Source: Halosolutus gelatinilyticus (GTDB lineage Archaea; Halobacteriota; Halobacteria; Halobacteriales; Natrialbaceae). Taken from it: 64,000 bases of DNA. The notes beneath the pieces were generated by a model that made no database searches, had not been told where the DNA came from, and was given only the letters and a program-made list of their open reading frames with translations. Both the position numbers and the translations under genes were made by a program. Location: assembly GCF_023028105.1 (NCBI RefSeq), contig NZ_CP095492.1:1-64000 (forward strand). Direction: 5' to 3'. Positions 8,549-18,954 of this stretch are shown here, one piece after another; position 1 is the first letter of the stretch, and each line of letters starts with the position of its first letter.

Positions 8549-9571
8549 TCAGGGCTCAAGGACGATCCGGAATCGGGCGTCATTTGCCAGCATCCGGTCG
8601 TAGGCGTCTTCTGCCTCTGAGAGCGGGAACGTCTCGAGGATCGGCGTCACATCCCGAAGTGCGCTGAATTCCAAGGTATCCTCCCAATCTTTCGCGTGGC
8701 CGGAGGCCCATCCGGCGACCGAGCCACGAGTCCCGACGAGGTGTTGGATATCCACGGGCACTGCTTCACCCGGGATCCCGACAGCGACGACTGAGCCGCC
8801 GCGGCCGACGCTACCCGCTGCATCGGCGATGGCGTCCGCCACGGGTGCAGTGGCCAGTACGAGTTGGGCGCCGCCCATCGACTGGAGCGCCTCGCTCGCG
8901 TCGGTCTTGCTCGTGTCCACGAAGTGGTCTGCACCGAGTTCAATCGCCAGTTCCTCCTTGTCGGCCGAGTGGGAGAGTGCAACCGTCTCGAACCCCATCT
9001 CGTGGGAGTACTGGATTCCGAGGTGGCCGAGACCACCAATTCCCTGTACTGCGACGAGGTCTCCCGGATCGGCGTCGGCATGGCGAAGCGCGTTGAACGT
9101 CGTGATTCCGGCACATAGTAGCGGAGCAGCGTCGACTGCATCCAACGCGTCGGGGATCCGGCCGACCGCTTCTGCTGGGACGGTTGCGTACTCCGCATAG
9201 CCACCGTCGAACGTCAGTCCCGTAATCTCGCCATTCTCACAGCCTTGGAAGTCACCACGTCGACAAGGGTCACAGGTGAAACAGTGACCGCCGTGCCAAC
9301 CGACGCCGACGCGGTCATCTACTGACCACTCTTCGACCTGATCGCCGACGGCGTCGATCCGGCCAGCGATCTCGTGACCTGGGATTCGCGGGTATTCGAT
9401 GCCAGGGTAGATACCCTCACGGACGTACACGTCGCTGTGACAGACGCCACACGCTTCGACCGCGATTCTAACCTCATCAGGATCCGGCTCAGGGATCGGT
9501 AATTCGACCGACTCGAACGCGTCTCCAGCGTCCGGGATTTGTATCGCTCGCATTGTACTGTCTGTCGCCAT
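8549..9571 (-). CDS. Zinc-dependent alcohol dehydrogenase (MDR family)
   Basis: A medium-chain zinc alcohol dehydrogenase that oxidises an alcohol or reduces an aldehyde with NAD(P). Catalytic zinc ligands are visible as CGVCHSDVYVREG (Cys) and GHEIAGRI (His/Glu). The structural zinc site is the spaced cysteines in CFTCDPCRRGDFQGC. The Rossmann fold carries GIGGLGHLG at about residues 170-180. Order and length (about 340) match the bacterial AdhA/AdhP type. In-frame ATGs occur at 9598, 9571 and 9553. I list 9571; 9553 (MRAIQIPDAG) is the usual family start, so the true start could be either. It is cytoplasmic. It stands alone between an acquired-looking region and a GH31 remnant. The physiological substrate is not evident. 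Confidence 0.88.
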   Translation of the reverse strand: MATDSTMRAIQIPDAGDAFESVELPIPEPDPDEVRIAVEACGVCHSDVYVREGIYPGIEYPRIPGHEIAGRIDAVGDQVEEWSVDDRVGVGWHGGHCFTCDPCRRGDFQGCENGEITGLTFDGGYAEYATVPAEAVGRIPDALDAVDAAPLLCAGITTFNALRHADADPGDLVAVQGIGGLGHLGIQYSHEMGFETVALSHSADKEELAIELGADHFVDTSKTDASEALQSMGGAQLVLATAPVADAIADAAGSVGRGGSVVAVGIPGEAVPVDIQHLVGTRGSVAGWASGHAKDWEDTLEFSALRDVTPILETFPLSEAEDAYDRMLANDARFRIVLEP

Positions 9572-9689
9572 GCTCAACCCTACGTCCGGACTTGCCATAG
9601 TACTTTGTTACGCTACTCATCCCGATCGCTCTCACTCTCGAGCAAGCCGGTGAACACTGCCAGGGGTAACAGACACGCTTGAACGACAT

Positions 9690-9957
9690 GCAGTTATCCA
9701 TCTCGATCGACACTGTGTCCTGCCGCTGGACGACGCGGCCACCGTCGTCGATAGCTTCCCCGTTCCCGACGAGCACGAGATCCGGTTCAGGGAACGTCTC
9801 ATCGCGTTCGTCGATTGCCAGTTCGGCCGCCGTCTCGTCCCGTTCGAGGGTCGTCACCGCGTACTCGTCGTCCTCAGAGGTGTAGCCGTTGCCAGCGTCC
9901 TCGTAAACGTCGAACGTTCCGTCGCGGCCGGGATAGATCCGTAGAATACTAACACTT
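9690..9957 (-). pseudogene. C-terminal remnant of a GH31 glycosidase
   Basis: On the minus strand an open frame reads SILRIYPGRDGTFDVYEDAG, then NGYTSEDDEYAVTTLERDE, and onward to VVQRQDTVSIEMD. This matches the DUF5110 domain that closes GH31 alpha-glucosidases and alpha-xylosidases, whose hallmark is IYPG.DG.F..YEDxGDGY. The catalytic barrel is absent: upstream of about 9957 the frame meets stops and the beta-galactosidase promoter region. Downstream of about 9690 the frame runs into unrelated sequence. Only a fragment of about 88 codons survives, so it is non-functional. It shows that an alpha-glycosidase gene once stood here. Confidence 0.65.
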
Positions 9958-9988
9958 ATTATATCGTTTACTGTTGAGTGTCAGTAGC

Positions 9989-12900
9989 ATGGGACACGAA
10001 CGACCCGACTCACAGCGGAGCGCAGCCGACGGTAGAGCCCCCGTCTCCCGACGAAACGTGTTGCTGGCCTCGGGAAGCATCGCCCTCCTTCCCGGACTCG
10101 CGTCCGGGACGCGACCGGCCGATCCGGACCCCGATCGATCGCCGAGCGACATCGATCTCGAGGCGTACCTCGAGAACCCGTCGATGGTCGGGGAGAACCA
10201 GACCGAGCCGCACGTCCCGACGATCCCGTACCCCTCCGTCGACGCGGCGCTCGGTCAGGATCGACCCGGCGAACCCCCGTGCGATCGGCGGGACCGCTCG
10301 CCGTTCGTCCGATCGCTTGACGGCGAGTGGGACTTCGACTGGTCGCTCACGCCCGACGGCGCGCCGGACGACTTCGACGCAGTCGACGACTGGGAGACGA
10401 TCGACGTCCCGTCGGTCTGGCAGACCGAGGGCTACGGACACGCCATGTACCGGAACGTGCCGGTGCCGATGTATCCGTACGATCCGCCAGCGGTCCCCGA
10501 CACGATCAACCCGGTCGGGACGTACCGTCGGACGTTCACGGTGCCGGGGAACTGGACGAAGGACCGGCGGACGTTCCTCCGGTTCGAGGGGATCAAGTCC
10601 GCGGCCTTCGTCTGGGTGAACGGTCAGTACGTCGGCTACGATCAGGGTTCGATGACGCCGGCCGAGTTTGACGTCACGGAGGCCGTAACGCCCGGCAAGA
10701 ACGAAATCGCCGTGCAGGTGTACCGGTGGTCCGACGGCACGTACCTCGAGAACCAGGACATGTGGCACTTTGCGGGCATCTACCGGGACGCGTACCTGTA
10801 CTCGACGCCGGAGGTCCACCTCCGCGACTACGTCGTCCGCACCGACCTAGACGAGAACTACGAGGACGCGACGCTCTCGGTGGACGCCGAAGTCGCCGAT
10901 CTCTCGGATCCATCAAAGAACGACGCTCCGAAGTCGAAGAAGCCCGACTCGTACACACTCCGCGCGCATCTGTTCGATCCGGACGACGAGTGCGTGACGA
11001 CGGTCGAGGAGGACGTCGACGTCCCCGCCGGCGAGAGCGTCGGTGTCGCCCTCGAGACGGACGTCGCGAACCCCTCTAAGTGGTCCGCGGAGCATCCCAA
11101 CCTGTATCGACTCGGGTTCGAACTCGTCCCGGCCGGCTCGAACCGACCGATCGAGGCCCAGCTCGAACGTGTGGGCTTTCGCGAGTACGAGATCATCGAC
11201 GGGCAGGTCCGCGTCAACGGCGAACCCGTCGAGTTCAGGGGCGTCAACCGCCACGAACACGACCCCGTGCGCGGCCGGACGATGACGACGGAACGCATTC
11301 GCGAGGATCTCGAGGTGATGAAGCGGTTCAACGTCAACGCGATTCGGACCTCCCACTATCCGAACGATCCCCGGTTCGCCGCGCTGGCCGACGAGTACGG
11401 CTTCTACGTGCAAGACGAGGTGAACGCCGAGACCCACCAGAACGAGGAACTCGTCAACGAACACCCCGAGTTCGACCCGTCGTTCATGGACCGGTTTCGC
11501 CGGATGGTCCAGCGCGACAAGAACCACCCGTCGATCTTCACGTGGAGCACCGGCAACGAGGCCGGACTGGGCCCGGCACACTTCGAGATGGCCGAGTACG
11601 CGACCGACGTCGACGACACGCGCTTTCTCTACCACCAGGCGAACAACGGCGGCGTCGCGCCGTTCGCGCCGATCATCGGCCCGCGGTACGTGAGTCCCGA
11701 CGAACTCGAGGGCTTCGCACACGACGAGGACGAAGAGCGGCCGGTCATCATGGGTGAGTACAGCCACGCGATGGGCAACAGCCTCGGACTCGTGGAGCCG
11801 TTCTGGGAGGCGATCAACGAGTACGACCAGCTTCAGGGCGGGTTCGTCTGGGACTGGGTCGATCAGACGCTGTACGAGGACCTGACGATCACCCCCGACG
11901 AGAGCGGGAACGGGAACGACGGGGCGCTCCACGGCAACCCCTCGGTCGTCGACACCGACCGCGGGAGCGCGCTCGCCCTATCCGGACTCGACGACTGGGT
12001 GGAACTCTATCGCGACCCGAGCCTCGACGTCACCGAACCGGGGCTCACGGTGGAGGCCGTCGTCAAGCCCCGGGAGCCGTGGACCGGCGCGGACCCGTAC
12101 GTCACGAAAGGCGACACCCAGTACGCCCTCCAGATGGCCGACGAAGAGACCATAGAGTGGTTCGTCTACGACCCCGACGAGGAGTGGGTCGCCGTCAGCG
12201 CGTCGGTGCCGGACGACTGGACGGGTTCTTGGCACCACGTCGCGGGCGTGCACACCGGTTCCGAACTGCAACTGTACGTCGACGGCAACCTGCTCGGGAC
12301 GACCGAGCACGACGGCACCATCGGCCACGCCCGCCAGCCCGTCAATATCGGGCGAAATGCGGAACTACATACCGACGGGCACGAAGGCTGGCTGTCGAAC
12401 GCCGTCTTCGACTCGGTCCGCATCTACGACCGGGCGCTCTCGACGGACGAACTCGAGGCCGACCGCGGCGCGGCCGACGACGCGATCCTCCGCCTCGCCT
12501 TCGAGGAGTTCCGCGACGAGGGGACGTTCCGCTCGTACGGCGTGAGCCCCTTCTGCATCAACGGAACGATCTTCGCCGACCGCACGCCGCAACCCGAGAT
12601 CTGGGAACTGAAGAAGGCTCACCAGCCCGTCGGCATCGACCCGGTCGATGCGGTCGCGGGCGACGTCGAAGTCCACAATCGATTCCACTTCACCGACCTC
12701 GACGAGTTCGAGACGACCTGGCGACTGACCGACGGCGAGACGGTGTTACAAGACGGGACGCTCGCGCTCGAGGCCGGTCCCGGGGAAACTCGGGAGGCGA
12801 CCGTCCCGTTCGACGAACCCGATCTCGAGCCGGGAGCGGAGTACTGGCTGACGATCGGCGTCGCGCTCGCCGAGGACGCGTGGTGGGCCGACGCCGGCCA

Positions 12901-12997
12901 CGAGGTGGCCTTCGAGCAGTTCGAGGTGCCCTTCGACGTCCCGCGAGCGCCGCTCGAGTCGATCGACTCGATGCCCGACACCTCGGTGAGCCGATGA
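9989..12997 (+). CDS. Exported GH2 beta-galactosidase, large chain with LamG insertion
   Basis: This is a 1002-residue LacZ-type GH2 enzyme from ATG 9989; an upstream TTG in frame at 9974 is less likely. The N-terminus carries a Tat-like signal (SRRNVLLASGSIALLPG). Domains: sugar-binding jelly roll about 85-275 (DWETIDVPSVWQTEGYG, FEGIKSAAFVWVNG); immunoglobulin-like about 280-390; TIM barrel about 395-630 with GVNRHEHDP, NAIRTSHYPNDPRF, acid/base Glu in STGNEAGLG near 522 and nucleophile Glu in IMGEYSHAMGNS near 589. A concanavalin/LamG-like domain of about 200 residues (DESGNGNDGALHGNP ... LRLAFEEF) is then inserted before the barrel end resumes at GTIFADRTPQPEIWELKKAH. It ends after LacZ domain 4. 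The LacZ domain 5 is encoded separately by the next gene. It would release beta-galactosyl residues outside the cell, for example from galactan. Confidence 0.92.
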   Translation: MGHERPDSQRSAADGRAPVSRRNVLLASGSIALLPGLASGTRPADPDPDRSPSDIDLEAYLENPSMVGENQTEPHVPTIPYPSVDAALGQDRPGEPPCDRRDRSPFVRSLDGEWDFDWSLTPDGAPDDFDAVDDWETIDVPSVWQTEGYGHAMYRNVPVPMYPYDPPAVPDTINPVGTYRRTFTVPGNWTKDRRTFLRFEGIKSAAFVWVNGQYVGYDQGSMTPAEFDVTEAVTPGKNEIAVQVYRWSDGTYLENQDMWHFAGIYRDAYLYSTPEVHLRDYVVRTDLDENYEDATLSVDAEVADLSDPSKNDAPKSKKPDSYTLRAHLFDPDDECVTTVEEDVDVPAGESVGVALETDVANPSKWSAEHPNLYRLGFELVPAGSNRPIEAQLERVGFREYEIIDGQVRVNGEPVEFRGVNRHEHDPVRGRTMTTERIREDLEVMKRFNVNAIRTSHYPNDPRFAALADEYGFYVQDEVNAETHQNEELVNEHPEFDPSFMDRFRRMVQRDKNHPSIFTWSTGNEAGLGPAHFEMAEYATDVDDTRFLYHQANNGGVAPFAPIIGPRYVSPDELEGFAHDEDEERPVIMGEYSHAMGNSLGLVEPFWEAINEYDQLQGGFVWDWVDQTLYEDLTITPDESGNGNDGALHGNPSVVDTDRGSALALSGLDDWVELYRDPSLDVTEPGLTVEAVVKPREPWTGADPYVTKGDTQYALQMADEETIEWFVYDPDEEWVAVSASVPDDWTGSWHHVAGVHTGSELQLYVDGNLLGTTEHDGTIGHARQPVNIGRNAELHTDGHEGWLSNAVFDSVRIYDRALSTDELEADRGAADDAILRLAFEEFRDEGTFRSYGVSPFCINGTIFADRTPQPEIWELKKAHQPVGIDPVDAVAGDVEVHNRFHFTDLDEFETTWRLTDGETVLQDGTLALEAGPGETREATVPFDEPDLEPGAEYWLTIGVALAEDAWWADAGHEVAFEQFEVPFDVPRAPLESIDSMPDTSVSR

Positions 12998-13112
12998 TCG
13001 GATCCGGGCGACGACGCCGACGGTTCGCGCTCCAGCGGCCGTCGGATCGACACCGAACGGATCGACGGACAGCGACGTCGAACGCACCCACACCACCCAC
13101 GCGGAGACACCC

Positions 13113-14753
13113 ATGACGAACAACGAGCAGACGACGATCGACGGACCGGACTTCGAGTACACCTTCGACGCCGACCTCGGGACGCTCAGTTCCCTGGAGG
13201 CGGACGGCCGCGAGTTCCTCGCGCGCGGTCCGCTGTTGAACGTCTGGCGGACGCCCATCTCGAACGAGGTGGTCGACTGGGGGGCGGCGGAGGCCGATGA
13301 GTGGTACGAGCTCGGCCTCGACCGCCTCGAACACGAGGTCGAGTCGTTCGAGGTCGACGACGTCGCGGACGGCGTGACCCGCGTCGAGATCGAGACGCTG
13401 GCGTCCGCGCCGGACGTCGACGCCGCCTTCGAGACCACGTACCTCTATCACGTCTTCGGGACGGGCGACGTCCTGCTCGGCGTACGCGCGGTGCCCAACG
13501 ACGCCGTCAGGAGGGGAGTCACCAACTGGCTTCCGCGCGTCGGCGTCCAACTCGAGGTGCCCGACGAGTTCGCGGAGCTGTCGTGGCACGGGAACGGGCC
13601 CGTGGAGACCTATCCGGACCGCAACAACGGTACGAAGATCGACACCTACGCCGGCCCCGTCGCCGAGCAGTACGTCCCCTACGTCCGCCCGCAGGAGTAC
13701 GGCAACAAGACGGACGTCAGGTGGGCGACGCTCGCGGCGTCCGACGACGCCGAACTCGCCGCGTTCGGCCACCCCGACATTAACGTCAGCGCCCACGACG
13801 TGGCGAACCTCGACCGGGCGCTGTTCGAGTACCAACTCGAGGAGCGCGACGGCGTTCTGTTCACCGTCGACCACGCCGTGACCGGCGTCGGCGGCACCCC
13901 GGTGCAGGCGCGCTCGGAGCACCGCGTCGTCCCCGACGGCCCCTTCGAGTTCGTCGTCGGCTTTCGCCCTCGAACGGGAGACGAGCCGTCGCCGATGGCC
14001 CTCTCCCGCCGTCGCCTCCCGTACGCGTTCGCCTCGACGAATCCGATCGGCGACTTCGAGGCCGAGTTCGACGAAGCGGACGGGACGATCACCGCCTCGG
14101 CGGTCGTCAGGAACGCGGGCGCGGAGCCGGAACGAATCGACGTTCCCCTGACCGTCAATGGTGAGGTCACCTCGAGCCGAACGGTCGACCTCGAACCCGG
14201 CGAGAAGACGTCGGTCTCGTTCGAGTACGACGCGCCCGAGACCGGCGTGCTCGAGGTGAGCGTCGGCGACGAACAGCCGCTCCTGTTTACCGTCCCCCGG
14301 CTCTCGCTCGAGGGCGAGTGGCGGTTCCGCGAGGGTGACGACCCCGCGTGGGCCGAGCCGGCGTACGACGACGGCGACTGGGAGGTCGTCGAGGTGCCGG
14401 CGAACTGGGAGGATCACTCCGATTACACCGAGAACGACGTCTTCGGCTGGTACCGGCGGTCGATCGAGATCCCCGAGAGCTGGGCCGGCTACGCCCTCGA
14501 GATCCCGGTCGGCGCGATCGACGACGTCGACGAGACGTTCCTAAACGGCGAGAAGATCGGCCAGACCGGGACGTTCCCCGAGAACGGGTACGAGACCGCG
14601 TGGAGCGAATCCCGACGGTACGCCGTCGAGCCGTCGACCGTCGAATTCGGCGGCGAGAACGTGATCGCGATCCGGGTGTACGACGGCGGTGGCGGCGGCG
14701 GACTGCACAGCGGGCCGCTCGGTCCGATCGAGGCGGTACCGGCAGACGACTGA
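13113..14753 (+). CDS. LacZ domain-5 (small chain) protein with extra jelly-roll domain
   Basis: This 546-residue protein begins with the domain that forms the C-terminal part of LacZ (Bgal_small_N): FEYTFDADLGTLSSLEADG, LLNVWRTPISNE, LSWHGNGPVETYPDRN, YVRPQEYGNKTDVRWATL, to about residue 290. A linker/Ig-like segment and a GH2-type sugar-binding jelly roll follow at about 390-540 (LEGEWRFREGDDPAW, YTENDVFGWYRRSIEIPESW, ETFLNGEKIGQTG). It starts 115 bases after the large-chain stop in another frame, with no in-frame start upstream. The pair resembles the LacL/LacM two-chain beta-galactosidases of lactobacilli. No signal peptide is visible although the large chain has one. Either it travels as a complex or the gene pair was once a single ORF broken by a frameshift. 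A hairpin terminator follows. Confidence 0.85.
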   Translation: MTNNEQTTIDGPDFEYTFDADLGTLSSLEADGREFLARGPLLNVWRTPISNEVVDWGAAEADEWYELGLDRLEHEVESFEVDDVADGVTRVEIETLASAPDVDAAFETTYLYHVFGTGDVLLGVRAVPNDAVRRGVTNWLPRVGVQLEVPDEFAELSWHGNGPVETYPDRNNGTKIDTYAGPVAEQYVPYVRPQEYGNKTDVRWATLAASDDAELAAFGHPDINVSAHDVANLDRALFEYQLEERDGVLFTVDHAVTGVGGTPVQARSEHRVVPDGPFEFVVGFRPRTGDEPSPMALSRRRLPYAFASTNPIGDFEAEFDEADGTITASAVVRNAGAEPERIDVPLTVNGEVTSSRTVDLEPGEKTSVSFEYDAPETGVLEVSVGDEQPLLFTVPRLSLEGEWRFREGDDPAWAEPAYDDGDWEVVEVPANWEDHSDYTENDVFGWYRRSIEIPESWAGYALEIPVGAIDDVDETFLNGEKIGQTGTFPENGYETAWSESRRYAVEPSTVEFGGENVIAIRVYDGGGGGGLHSGPLGPIEAVPADD

Positions 14754-14760
14754 CGCAAGG

Positions 14761-14804
14761 GAGAGACCGCTCTCGCCCGGCGGGCGTCTCTCGTGCCGTT
14801 TTTT
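14761..14804 (+). terminator. Hairpin plus T-tract after the lacZ-type genes
   Basis: GAGAGAC (14761-14767) pairs with GTCTCTC (14786-14792), with an inner GCCCG/CGGGC, and is followed by six T (14799-14804). It sits between convergent genes. Archaeal termination mainly needs the T-tract. Confidence 0.55.
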
Positions 14805-14840
14805 CGCTCGAAATCGAGTTTCGAGTCCAAACAGGCGGTG

Positions 14841-15947
14841 TTAGCGGCGGTTCGCGAGCGGCGATCCGGGATCGATCCACTCGTTCAGATACTCCTGGAC
14901 CCGAACCGCCTCGCCGGTTTCGGCGCTCTCGATCGCCGCGAAGACGATCGCCATCGATCGGAGGTTCGCGCGGGCGTTCGTCTCCATCGGTTCCCCGCCC
15001 GCACACCACTCGGCGAACCGTTCGATGAGCCACGCGTTCCCCCACTTCTCCCGGCTCTCGAGGGGGACCGACTCGCCGGCCTCGAGAGAGGTGTGGCCGA
15101 GACAGCCCTCCGCGGCGCGCTCGTACGGAAACCGCCGGAGGTCGCCGCCGTCGAGGAGGAGCGAGGCCTCTTTACAGTTGGCCCGCACGTGCTCCGCCCA
15201 CCAGCCGTTGAAACTGGCCGCGGCCGTGTTCAGCCCCTCGTAGACGATCGTCGCCCCGTTTTCCATGCCCAGTTGCACGACCGCGTTCGGGTCGTCCGCG
15301 AAATCGGAGTACGACGGGTTCCACGACCGACAGAACACCGTCTCGACGCGCTCGCCGGCCATGTCGGCCAGCAGGTCGAGGTGGTGGATCGCGCCGTCGA
15401 TCAGCAGCGGGTGCTCCTCGAGGTCGTAGAGCCGTTCGCCGGCCCAGCTCCCGCGCGACCGAGCGTTGACGGCATACCGGCCGTACAGGTAGTCGACGGG
15501 ACCGTAGTCGCCCGATCGTATTCGGCGGCGGAGGGTCGTGATATCCTGTCGAAACCGGTGGCTCATCGTGACGCCCAGCTTCGTCCCGGTCTCCTCGACC
15601 AGTTCGACGATCTCGAGCGCGGCGTCCATCGAGTCCGCCAGCGGCTTCTCCGTGAGCACGTCGAGGTCGTACTCGACCGCGAGGGAGACGAGCTCCGCGC
15701 GGGCGTGCGGCGGGACGACGAGCGCTACGGCGTCGGCGTCCCGCTCTCGCATCGCCGTCTCGGCGTCCGTGTAACACCGCTCCTCGGCGAGCGAGAGCGA
15801 GTCGACGGCGTTCGAAAGCGCGTCCTCGTTCACGTCGACGGCCGCGACGACCTCGACGGTGTCGTCTTCCACGTTGGGCGGGAGGAACTCCCGGCACCAG
15901 GCTTCACCCTGATTGCCCGTTCCGATCTGTATCAGTCGGCAAGTCAC
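14841..15947 (-). CDS. Gfo/Idh/MocA family oxidoreductase
   Basis: This 368-residue NAD(P)-dependent sugar or sugar-derivative dehydrogenase starts with a Rossmann motif (LIQIGTGNQGEAW) and carries VLTEKPLADS, where EKP contains the catalytic Lys of the family, near residue 100. VTMSHRFRQDI and IDGAIHHLDLLADM (the conserved His region) follow, with an alpha/beta C-terminal domain. It is cytoplasmic. It lies 52 bases downstream of the GH3 gene on the same strand and is probably co-transcribed, so it may process the sugar released by the GH3 enzyme. The exact substrate cannot be read from sequence. It converges with the lacZ-type genes at a terminator. Confidence 0.88.
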   Translation of the reverse strand: MTCRLIQIGTGNQGEAWCREFLPPNVEDDTVEVVAAVDVNEDALSNAVDSLSLAEERCYTDAETAMRERDADAVALVVPPHARAELVSLAVEYDLDVLTEKPLADSMDAALEIVELVEETGTKLGVTMSHRFRQDITTLRRRIRSGDYGPVDYLYGRYAVNARSRGSWAGERLYDLEEHPLLIDGAIHHLDLLADMAGERVETVFCRSWNPSYSDFADDPNAVVQLGMENGATIVYEGLNTAAASFNGWWAEHVRANCKEASLLLDGGDLRRFPYERAAEGCLGHTSLEAGESVPLESREKWGNAWLIERFAEWCAGGEPMETNARANLRSMAIVFAAIESAETGEAVRVQEYLNEWIDPGSPLANRR

Positions 15948-15999: not shown

Positions 16000-18954
16000 T
16001 CACTCGAGGCGAACCGTGTGGACGCGGACGTCGCCGCCGCGAGCCACGACGTAGAGCTCTCGGTCGTTCCCGACCGCCCCCTCCAGCGACATCGTTCGCT
16101 CCTCGTACTCGTAGACGCCCCCCGTCGAGGGGACCTCGGTCTGTCCGAGCACCGGACCGGACGGCGATCCGCAGCGCAGTTCCAGCGTCGCCGCGCCGGC
16201 GTCGGCCCTGGCGACCTCGACGGTCGCGTCGGTCGGCCGGTCTCGCAGGTCGACGTCGGCGAACGAGAGCCACGAGCCGTCGGTCATGCCGACGACCGTT
16301 CCCGCCGATCGCGAACGGTCGAGCAGTTCGATCTCGGACCACGACCAGTCGTCGGCGTCGACGGCTCGCGTCGTCTCGGAGAGATCGCGCGGCGGAATCC
16401 GCTCGCCGTCTACCCGGATCGAACCGCGCTCCTGAATATCGTCGGACGCGGAGCCCACGTAAATCGAGTGCGTCGCGCGTTCGACGACTCGCTTCCGTCG
16501 GGTCACGTCCCAGAACGAGAACGCGTCGAACTCGATCGAACGCTCCACGGTCGTCGCCTCACCCGGCTCGAGGTGTACCCGCTCGAACCCGCGCAGGACC
16601 CGTTCCGGCTGTTGGGTCCGCGACTGGCGCTGCTCGGTGTAGACCTGAACGACCTCGTCGGCGGCCGTCGAACCGGTGTTGGTCACGCGGACGCTGACGG
16701 TCGCCGTCTCGCCGGCCTCGAGCGGGCCGCCCGGCGAGATCCGGAGGCGGTCGTACTCGAAGTTGCTGTAGGAGAGCCCGTGTCCGAACGCGTACAGCGG
16801 GTCCTCCTGGCCGTACCGGTACGTCATCCCCGTCTCGGCGATGTTGTACTCGGTGATGTCGGGGAGCCGATCGGCCGAACGCGGCCAGGTCTGGGTCAGT
16901 CGGCCGGCCGGGGAGACGTCGCCGACCAGCACGTCGGTCAGGGCTCGTCCGGTCTCCTGTCCGGCGTGGCTGGTCCACAGAATCGACGGCGCGCGATCCT
17001 CGACGCCGTTCAGGTGAACCGGGTAACTGCTCTGTGCGATCACCGCGGTCCGCGGGTGGGCGTCGCTGACGCGCTCGACGAGTTCCCGCTGGGACGACGG
17101 CAGTGCGAGGGTCTCGCGATCCTGGGTTTCGCGGCCGCCGATCAGCGGGTGCGTTCCGACCATCACGACGGCGGCGTCGGCCTCGCTCGCGGCCTCGACC
17201 GCGGCTTCGATCCCGTCGGCTCGCACCTCGAGGTCGAACGTCGCCGCCTCGGCCCGGTCGTCGGCGCTGACGTGAAGCGTCCCGTCTTCGATCGCGACGA
17301 ACTGCCCGCTACTCGGGTGGCGAAGCGCGACTGCGCCGTCGTCGACGTCGACGAACTCGAACGCCTCCTCGACGACCTCCCAGCCGCCCGGCTGGTCCGC
17401 CGAGTTCACCAGTCGTTCGTCCTCGACGGTCACGTACCGCTCGTTCGCCGTCGCCCGCAGCGTCCAGACGTCGCTCGTCCACTGGACGGACTCGAACAAC
17501 TGGACGCTCGGCGCGTCGGTTTCCTGGAGTCCGAGGGCACCGCCACCCTTCCCGACGCCGGCCGAAACGTAGTCTCCGGACGAGCGCTCCCTGAGTGCGA
17601 TCCGATCCACGCCGGCTTCGGAACGGATTCGATCGGGACCGAGCCGATCGCGAAGCCCTTCTCGGAGGGTGATGCGATACGGTGGCGTCCCGCTGTACCA
17701 GTCGTCGAACACCCTGTCCGAGAGCGGTCCGACGACAGCGACGGTCTCGGTTTCGGTCTCTGAGAGGGGCAGCGTCCGGTTGTCGTCCTCGTTCTTCAGG
17801 AGGACGGTCCCCTCCTGGGCCGCCTCTCGAGCGAGGTCTCGGTGCTCGGGCCGGCCGATGACGTCGGCGGTGAGATCCGCGTAGGGATCGTCCGTTGGGT
17901 CCAGAAACTCCCCGAGCAGCGCCCGAACCGTCAGGACGTGGCCGGTCGCCTCGTCGAGGTCGGCTTCGTCGAGATAGCCCTCCTCGAGCGCGCCGAGTAT
18001 CGCGTCGACCGTCGTCGAACTGTCGGCGCCGAACTCGGTGAAGCTGTCGAGGCCGGCGAGCACCGCGGCGGCGCGAGCCCGTTCCTCCGAGTCGAAGTAC
18101 TCCTGAGCGCCGGTCAGGTTCACCGGGGCCCACGCGTCGCTGACGTTCATCACCGCGTTTTCGTCGGGCGCCCACTCTCGGACCGCGGCGTCCATGAGCG
18201 GCGAGACGGTCATCGGCCGGCCGTTGAGAAGGTTGTACGAGGCCATCACGCCGACCGCGCTCCCGTCCTCGATCGGCGGTCGGAAGAACGGCAGGTAGTA
18301 GTCGCGCAAGAGCCGCGGCGGAATCTCCGCGTTGGTCGTCGTCCGCTCGGTCTCGTTGTTGTACCCGACGAAGTGTTTGAGTATCGGCGCCGTCTTGCGG
18401 TAGTCCGGGTGGTCGCCGGCCAGCCCGCTCGCGTACGCCGTCGATAGCTCGCCGCTCAACAGCGGGTCCTCGGCGTACCCCTCCTCGTTGCGCCCCCACC
18501 GCGGATCGCGGAGCGGATCGACGGTCGGAGACCAGACGTTGAGTCCGACGCCCCCGTCGGTCGCGTCGTGTTTCCCGCGGACCTCGTCTCCGACGGCGTC
18601 GCCGACGCGCTCTATGAGGTCGGGATCCCACGTGCTCGCGAGACCGATCGCCTGCGGAAAGACGGTCGCCTCCCCGAGCCAGGAGACGCCGTGTAGCGCC
18701 TCCGTTCCGGTCCGGAACGCGTCGAGGCCGGCCCGCTCGATCCGCGGTTGATACTGGTGTAGCAGCGACGCCTTCTCCTCGACGGTGAGTCGCTCGAGCA
18801 ACTCGGCGACGCGGTCGTCGAACGCGAGGTCCCCGTCGTCCGCCGCGCCATCGCTCTCGCCCGTGGTCTCGCTGCGCCCGACACCGCCGAACAGCGTTAG
18901 ACTCGTTCCCGCTCCGATGCTCGTGAGCACGTCTCTGCGAATGTGGCTAACCAT
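16000..18954 (-). CDS. Exported GH3 beta-glucosidase/xylosidase with inserted and C-terminal modules
   Basis: The 984-residue protein has a Tat-type N-terminus (IRRDVLTSIGAGTSLTLFGG). The GH3 barrel runs about 45-360: VEEKASLLHQYQ, NVWSPTVDPLRDPRWGRN, APILKHFVGYNNE and the nucleophile Asp in NVSDAWAP near 271. The alpha/beta sandwich domain has EGTVLLKNEDDNRTLPLS and DAAVVMVGTHPLIGGRETQD. It is interrupted at about 445-570 by an insertion with repeated YVSAG, RYVTVEDERL and QFVAIEDGTLHVS motifs, which looks like a fascin-like beta-trefoil. A fibronectin-III-like domain follows (VSVRVTNTGSTAADEVVQVY), then a CBM6-like domain at about 870-984 ending VHTVRLE. It is a retaining exo-beta-glycosidase, probably acting on xylo-, gluco- or arabino-oligosaccharides outside the cell. 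It is upstream in an operon with the Gfo/Idh/MocA gene. Confidence 0.92.
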   Translation of the reverse strand: MVSHIRRDVLTSIGAGTSLTLFGGVGRSETTGESDGAADDGDLAFDDRVAELLERLTVEEKASLLHQYQPRIERAGLDAFRTGTEALHGVSWLGEATVFPQAIGLASTWDPDLIERVGDAVGDEVRGKHDATDGGVGLNVWSPTVDPLRDPRWGRNEEGYAEDPLLSGELSTAYASGLAGDHPDYRKTAPILKHFVGYNNETERTTTNAEIPPRLLRDYYLPFFRPPIEDGSAVGVMASYNLLNGRPMTVSPLMDAAVREWAPDENAVMNVSDAWAPVNLTGAQEYFDSEERARAAAVLAGLDSFTEFGADSSTTVDAILGALEEGYLDEADLDEATGHVLTVRALLGEFLDPTDDPYADLTADVIGRPEHRDLAREAAQEGTVLLKNEDDNRTLPLSETETETVAVVGPLSDRVFDDWYSGTPPYRITLREGLRDRLGPDRIRSEAGVDRIALRERSSGDYVSAGVGKGGGALGLQETDAPSVQLFESVQWTSDVWTLRATANERYVTVEDERLVNSADQPGGWEVVEEAFEFVDVDDGAVALRHPSSGQFVAIEDGTLHVSADDRAEAATFDLEVRADGIEAAVEAASEADAAVVMVGTHPLIGGRETQDRETLALPSSQRELVERVSDAHPRTAVIAQSSYPVHLNGVEDRAPSILWTSHAGQETGRALTDVLVGDVSPAGRLTQTWPRSADRLPDITEYNIAETGMTYRYGQEDPLYAFGHGLSYSNFEYDRLRISPGGPLEAGETATVSVRVTNTGSTAADEVVQVYTEQRQSRTQQPERVLRGFERVHLEPGEATTVERSIEFDAFSFWDVTRRKRVVERATHSIYVGSASDDIQERGSIRVDGERIPPRDLSETTRAVDADDWSWSEIELLDRSRSAGTVVGMTDGSWLSFADVDLRDRPTDATVEVARADAGAATLELRCGSPSGPVLGQTEVPSTGGVYEYEERTMSLEGAVGNDRELYVVARGGDVRVHTVRLE

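Follow-up and report, generated by a model that had tools for sequence, protein, structure and literature searches.

The twin-arginine translocation (Tat) pathway carries folded, pre-assembled complexes, and partners without a signal can be exported as hitch-hikers, for example subunits of bacterial hydrogenase and DMSO reductase. LacLM of lactic acid bacteria is a heterodimeric LacZ-type β-galactosidase of glycoside hydrolase family 2 (GH2) on two adjacent genes, which overlap according to the accessible part of PMC6783300. In the reference operon of Leuconostoc mesenteroides FM06 plasmid pLm1 (L221; located via the accessible part of PMC5511919), this overlap measures 17 nt; LacL comprises 626 aa and ends right after domain 3, LacM consists of domain 5 only, and domain 4, a LamG domain, and a jelly roll were found by Pfam in neither chain. 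Neighbouring genes can also be tied by termination-reinitiation (TeRe). Such coupling was shown at ATGA overlaps (Huber et al. 2019, PMC6728339), and in Haloferax volcanii reinitiation amounted to 40-60% at 13-14 nt and was near zero at 22-23 nt, with closely spaced pairs 8.1-fold enriched for complex subunits (Huber et al. 2023, PMC10666635), as given in the accessible parts of both papers. Here, a locus is described in the first 64,000 nt of contig NZ_CP095492.1 of Halosolutus gelatinilyticus (assembly GCF_023028105.1; this whole stretch is called the window), in which a LacZ is encoded as two chains with an export signal on the large chain alone. As a whole, we consider it probable that a single-chain ancestor was split, that the chains assemble and leave the cell together by Tat, and that a bridging micro-open reading frame ties their production.

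Domains, distribution, and origin of the two-chain LacZ

The open reading frame (ORF) of the large chain comprises a Tat-type signal, LacZ domains 1 to 3, a LamG insert, and domain 4, with Pfam matches to GH2_N (residues 113-279), GH2 (281-403), the TIM barrel (406-641), Laminin_G_3 (673-827, 5.8e-21), and domain 4 (898-986). In the small chain, Bgal_small_N (11-280, 2.6e-53) is followed by a CARDB-like segment below the cut-off (325-384) and a GH2_N-like jelly roll (398-485, 2.6e-7). Coordinates and domains of both ORFs were thereby given correctly by a first-pass annotation made from the DNA sequence alone. Together, the two chains hold domains 1 to 5 and both catalytic motifs when aligned to Thermotoga maritima LacZ, namely NEAG, which we take to provide the acid/base, and EYxHAMGNS, presumably the nucleophile region. 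Modelled with AlphaFold2 from a 28-row alignment (mean pLDDT 81.7, pTM 0.63), the small chain matched LacZ domain 5 in the PDB, with T. maritima LacZ as the best match (E 1.7e-27). In the alignment to this enzyme (6s6z), the large chain was matched up to residue 985 and the match resumed at small-chain residue 5, the T. maritima linker spanning the joint being about 20 residues long. The alignment is continuous across both chains and therefore nothing was lost at the joint. The cut lies in the stretch linking domains 4 and 5, where the large chain ends at ...SVSR and the single-chain rows continue into domain 5, and no residue block is absent compared with single-chain relatives. An Rfam search of positions 9500-15000 gave no match.

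Whole-genome searches used the small chain as query. In the family, 20 of 125 genomes matched at E 1e-10, and in five of them (the source genome, G024, G025, G042, and G072) a separate ORF of 561-588 codons matched over the full 546 residues. Across the order, evenly sampled with 392 genomes, there were 39 matches at 1e-40, seven of which were nearly full-length separate ORFs (the source genome, G024, G025, G042, G256, G289, and G348). The split occurred in two of 146 genomes of the family of Halocatena (G348 and G428, with identical loci) and in two of 28 genomes of the family of Haladaptatus; in two further families, 2 of 170 and 2 of 10 genomes matched at 1e-75, all within single-chain frames of 1397-1544 codons. 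In total, split loci were found in nine haloarchaeal genomes (four Natrialbaceae genera, Haladaptatus, and Halocatena) and on one named plasmid of Haloterrigena salifodinae, which is 98.4% identical to the locus of G024. The small chain is always adjacent to and downstream of the large chain, and the NCBI annotation gives two coding sequences in all four annotated plasmid records examined (H. salifodinae, Natrinema sp. SYSU A 869, and two Haladaptatus). The viral contigs searched held no small-chain relative. The LacZ of G259 (L209, L127) was rejected as a second clean split because its frames are interrupted within the TIM barrel and at other places, which looks like damage. In the Natrialba asiatica draft (NZ_AOIO01000003.1, L040 ~8978-9040), transposase adapter sequence and an N lie within the end of the large-chain gene and a second N lies near the signal, an assembly contamination that corrupts the public gene.

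The first-pass annotation had left a natural split and a recent frameshift as options and pointed to orthologues for a decision. Relatives of five other genera show the same two-ORF layout, which supports the former. That a single-chain gene was disrupted by a recent frameshift or a sequencing error, or that programmed frameshifting produces a fused protein, has next to no probability left and is already refuted for the set of split loci. The frame of the small chain is indeed open back to 12990 in the window, as had been noted, but the bridging frame stayed open in every dinucleotide shuffle of the gap, so openness says little here. Against a frameshift stand the presence of the two ORFs in six genera, stop codons that interrupt the would-be linker frame in three of six long-gap relatives (L011, L013, L014), gaps ranging from 12 to 139 nt, and the purifying selection on both chains, with ratios of nonsynonymous to synonymous substitution rates (dN/dS) over seven pairs of 0.11-0.25 for the large and 0.15-0.32 for the small chain. 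A programmed +1 frameshift at CGA TGA is likewise rejected by the relatives.

Trees were built from domains 1 to 4 with LamG removed (32 rows) and from domain 5 (25 rows), and both placed all split rows in one clade (SH-like support 0.990 and 0.992) among single-chain haloarchaeal enzymes, the nearest single-chain relative being poorly supported (0.28 and 0.43). The most economical origin would be a single cut of a one-chain ancestor at the linker joining domains 4 and 5, with the genes staying adjacent from then on. The LamG insert is older than the split, as it can be aligned in single-chain LacZs from haloarchaea, actinobacteria, and other phyla. By Pfam, a jelly roll after domain 5 was not detected in L044, the one single-chain relative scanned, and the small chain therefore probably gained its jelly roll after the split. 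This module is an accessory common to large haloarchaeal carbohydrate enzymes, being present in GH97 (L132, L136, L144) and glucose/sorbosone-dehydrogenase (GSDH)-LamG proteins (L134, L137). LamG also occurs elsewhere: seven single-chain haloarchaeal LacZs with open frames of 1594-1766 codons (L017, L019, L021-L023, L025, L030) carry it inside domain 5, near small-chain residue 105, and not between TIM barrel and domain 4, and a GH2-like protein of the source genome (G000:C1:2947407-2949764, 1535-codon frame) has two LamG-like matches upstream of the catalytic part.

Export signal and active site

Tat calls were made with a pattern and a hydrophobicity rule. The large chain carries the Tat-type motif VSRRNVLLASGSIALLPGLASG, a twin arginine followed by a hydrophobic stretch, and the small chain has no such signal, with a best 15-mer Kyte-Doolittle mean of 0.47 against 1.94 for the large chain. 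Both measures agree with the earlier assignment of the signal to the large chain alone. Of the eight split loci, seven have a large chain with both motif and hydrophobic stretch; the exception is the N. asiatica draft, where the motif is found in a different frame, next to an ambiguous base N. None of the eight small chains had a hydrophobic N-terminus.

Among single-chain haloarchaeal LacZs that align through LamG, 10 of the 11 tested carried a Tat motif, and none of the four tested without LamG did. Halorubrum lipolyticum L068, which also has no LamG, gave a match to the Tat pattern with an unconvincing sequence. One of those four is a single-chain LacZ of the source genome itself (G000:C1:2959638-2962793, 1068-codon frame) and thus a natural intracellular control. 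Given the motif in the LamG-bearing single-chain enzymes, the ancestor most likely left the cell as one piece, and the small chain would now be expected to leave together with the large one. A signal on one chain only would imply assembly before Tat export, and piggy-back export by Tat would fit these data. In the cytoplasm, both chains would fold and join in the manner of LacZ, domain 5 resting against the catalytic TIM-barrel part, and the signal of the large chain would export the folded pair, the small chain travelling along. Outside, the jelly roll of the small chain and LamG of the large chain would probably hold substrate or the cell surface. That the small chain is instead exported alone by a signal-independent or unrecognised route, joining the large chain outside, is very unlikely; nothing except the missing signal speaks for it, and both the lack of a hydrophobic N-terminal stretch in all eight small chains and the capacity of Tat for folded, pre-assembled complexes argue against it.

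The earlier statement that domain 5 contributes to the active site calls for caution. The contact made by its GxGxxxSW loop, which carries Trp999 in E. coli LacZ, is absent; the loop is shortened to GVGGTPV, with three columns missing, in the split and in most single-chain haloarchaeal rows. This shortening weakens the case for domain 5 as catalytically essential. As single-chain relatives are also without the loop, its loss as a result of the split was rejected, and with the loop shortened in split and single-chain rows alike, the substrate preference may be other than lactose. The lost loop and the missing signal would also suit a small chain that stands outside the enzyme as a cytoplasmic leftover or a separate lectin-like protein, the large chain working or decaying alone. 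This seems unlikely, as the two chains have similar dN/dS values, the small-chain gene always lies next to and downstream of the large-chain gene, and large haloarchaeal carbohydrate enzymes also carry its jelly roll. The predicted product of the pair is a secreted GH2 β-galactosidase-type enzyme.

A bridging micro-ORF at the joint

In the window, the ATG of a micro-ORF overlaps the TGA of the large chain and its TGA overlaps the ATG of the small chain, in each case as ATGA with 4 nt. The double overlap was found at gaps of 115 nt (window), 118 nt (H. salina, G024, and H. salifodinae), 76 nt (Natrinema), and 46 nt (two Haladaptatus). For N. asiatica, where adapter sequence interrupts the end of the large-chain gene in the draft, a bridge at 139 nt was deduced from the ATGA at the homologous site; the automated comparison scored this locus as having no bridge (gap 96, with the large frame ending in adapter sequence). 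Every gap length above 20 nt, five in all including the deduced value, equals 1 modulo 3, and the chance of the frame being kept at five lengths is (1/3)^4 = 0.012 after the first. The micro-ORFs are 17-48 aa long across the loci. The A before TGA is kept though the last residue of the large chain changes from R to E, and Halocatena, the sole short-gap locus, has a gap of 12 nt, a TAA stop, and no bridge.

A wider control was run with a purpose-written codon-based gene caller on 2.464 Mb (2.064 Mb of the source genome and 0.4 Mb of G221, from another family). Of 614 co-directional pairs with gaps of 20-200 nt, 37 had ATGA at the upstream stop and 14 were full bridges including the window locus. 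Where the next start was ATGA (24+146+29 of the 614 pairs), gaps of 1 mod 3 and 0 mod 3 stood at 13:3 with an upstream ATGA and at 51:75 without (one-sided Fisher p = 0.0021; p = 0.0039 excluding the window locus), the mod-2 class (0 with, 57 without) being excluded, as the start caller takes an ATG on a stop as gene start. In this heuristic scan, bridging micro-ORFs are in excess between co-directional haloarchaeal genes.

At 115 nt, the large-to-small distance exceeds the overlap or gap of up to ~10-20 nt that defines TeRe pairs, and this range is reached only stepwise via the micro-ORF. As direct coupling fails beyond ~20 nt in Haloferax according to the accessible parts of the papers above, the bridge would replace one overlong gap with two short overlaps. 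On finishing the large chain, a ribosome would reinitiate at ATGA, translate a throw-away micro-ORF, and reinitiate again at the ATGA of the small chain, so that production of the small chain would be tied to that of the large one. We tentatively propose, with little short of an even chance, that peptide-agnostic micro-ORFs of haloarchaea serve as ribosome relays across overlong gaps, and that the split LacZ provides a conserved case, its relay frame persisting through changes of length and peptide and keeping the chains of a predicted Tat-exported enzyme in step.

Several points weigh against this account. Peptide conservation had to be rejected as evidence, the peptides being unrelated across genera. 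Gap sequences barely align across genera, but common ancestry of the loci makes the five lengths partly dependent on each other. Shine-Dalgarno-like motifs precede some small-chain starts (GGAG in the window, GGAGGA in Haladaptatus), and coupling may therefore not be needed there. The bridge test was devised after the locus had been seen, and its gene starts are heuristic; together with the shared ancestry, this keeps the relay a little below an even chance. Chain binding, export, and activity are predicted.

Somewhat further below an even chance, yet quite conceivable, is that the split is real and the heterodimer exported, while the micro-ORF is a chance by-product and the small chain uses its own ribosome-binding site on a shared mRNA. 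The motifs just mentioned would suit this; a second codon starting with A makes ATGA as common as counted above, and open frames are cheap in GC-rich gaps (0.51-1.00 under shuffling). Chance accounts less well for the frame kept at five gap lengths, the A retained despite the change from R to E, the sole bridge-less locus having a gap short enough for direct coupling, and the genome-wide ratios. By codon scores, the bridging peptides are mostly non-coding. A promoter within the gap was rejected (no AT-rich stretch by eye, gap GC 0.70), and a sigma-70 promoter scan of the region is not meaningful, the model not being made for archaea. The candidate TATA-like stretch upstream of the large chain suggests a leaderless transcript.

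Genomic setting and comparison with known systems

The features of the locus are collected in Table 1. In H. salifodinae and Natrinema, the pair neighbours a Gfo/Idh dehydrogenase and a sugar ABC transporter, with a GH3 enzyme as well in H. salifodinae, and the neighbours in the window match those of H. salifodinae. Such neighbours would fit an enzyme that breaks down a plant-type oligosaccharide extracellularly.

Table 1. Features of the split LacZ locus and its neighbours in the window
Feature	Position	Strand	Remarks
TATA-like AT-rich stretch	9955..9966	+	~29 nt upstream of ATG 9989; by eye
Large chain	9974..12997	+	ORF; 1007 aa from TTG 9974, 1002 aa from likelier ATG 9989
Tat-type signal	10046..10108	+	SRRNVLL and hydrophobic stretch; motif and hydrophobicity rule
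LamG/ConA-like insert	11990..12454	+	PF13385, residues 673-827; between TIM barrel and domain 4
LacZ domain 4	12665..12931	+	PF16353, residues 898-986
Bridging micro-ORF	12994..13116	+	40 aa, third frame; ATGA double overlap
Small chain	13113..14753	+	546 aa, ATG start, without signal
LacZ domain 5 (Bgal_small_N)	13143..13952	+	Pfam, structural match
CARDB-like Ig segment	14085..14264	+	weak, below Pfam cut-off; strands present in model
C-terminal jelly roll (GH2_N/BetaGal_ABD2-like)	14301..14702	+	Pfam; recurs in haloarchaeal GH97 and GSDH-LamG proteins
Gfo/Idh-like gene	14841-15947		
GH3-like gene	16000-18954		
ABC genes	from 19221		by sequence of ATPase

In titles and abstracts of the open-licence literature, no description was found of a two-chain haloarchaeal LacZ, of Tat hitch-hikers in haloarchaea, or of micro-ORF bridges or minicistron couplers, which is weak evidence of absence. 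The haloarchaeal pair represents a second, independent natural cut of LacZ, at another domain border than in LacLM and with one signal on an enzyme that must be exported. A pair with one signal offers a clean test of Tat export of assembled glycoside hydrolases in archaea, and the relay, if true, would explain the coupling of long-gap gene pairs where direct coupling fails beyond ~20 nt.

With known Tat hitch-hikers, the pair shares one partner with a twin-arginine signal and one without, and it would differ from them as a glycoside hydrolase cut from a single polypeptide. With the TeRe pairs of Haloferax and E. coli it shares the ATGA overlaps and the expectation of subunits of one complex; published pairs are in direct contact, whereas the split loci have two ATGA overlaps with a micro-ORF of 17-48 aa between them, spanning 46-139 nt. 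The single-chain haloarchaeal LamG-LacZs (L044 of Candidatus Halobonum tyrrellensis with 1544 aa, L197, and L199-L201) resemble the split pair in domains 1 to 5, in LamG at the same site, and in the short Trp999 loop, and L197 and L199-L201 also carry the Tat motif. They differ in being one chain, and L044 in having no detected jelly roll after domain 5.

The description of the locus as LacLM-like holds as an analogy and not as kinship. Both are LacZ-type GH2 enzymes on two adjacent genes with a small chain corresponding to domain 5 and translation units tied by position. However, LacLM is cut after domain 3 and is without domain 4, whereas the cut of the haloarchaeal pair falls between domains 4 and 5, and the genes of LacLM overlap, whereas those of the haloarchaeal pair are separated by 12-139 nt. 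The small chain is 26% identical to LacM over 218 columns, compared with 46-49% to domain 5 of single-chain haloarchaeal enzymes (L044, L199-L201). Cut site, missing domain 4, and this nearer kinship rule out membership in LacLM and place the small chain with the haloarchaeal LacZs.

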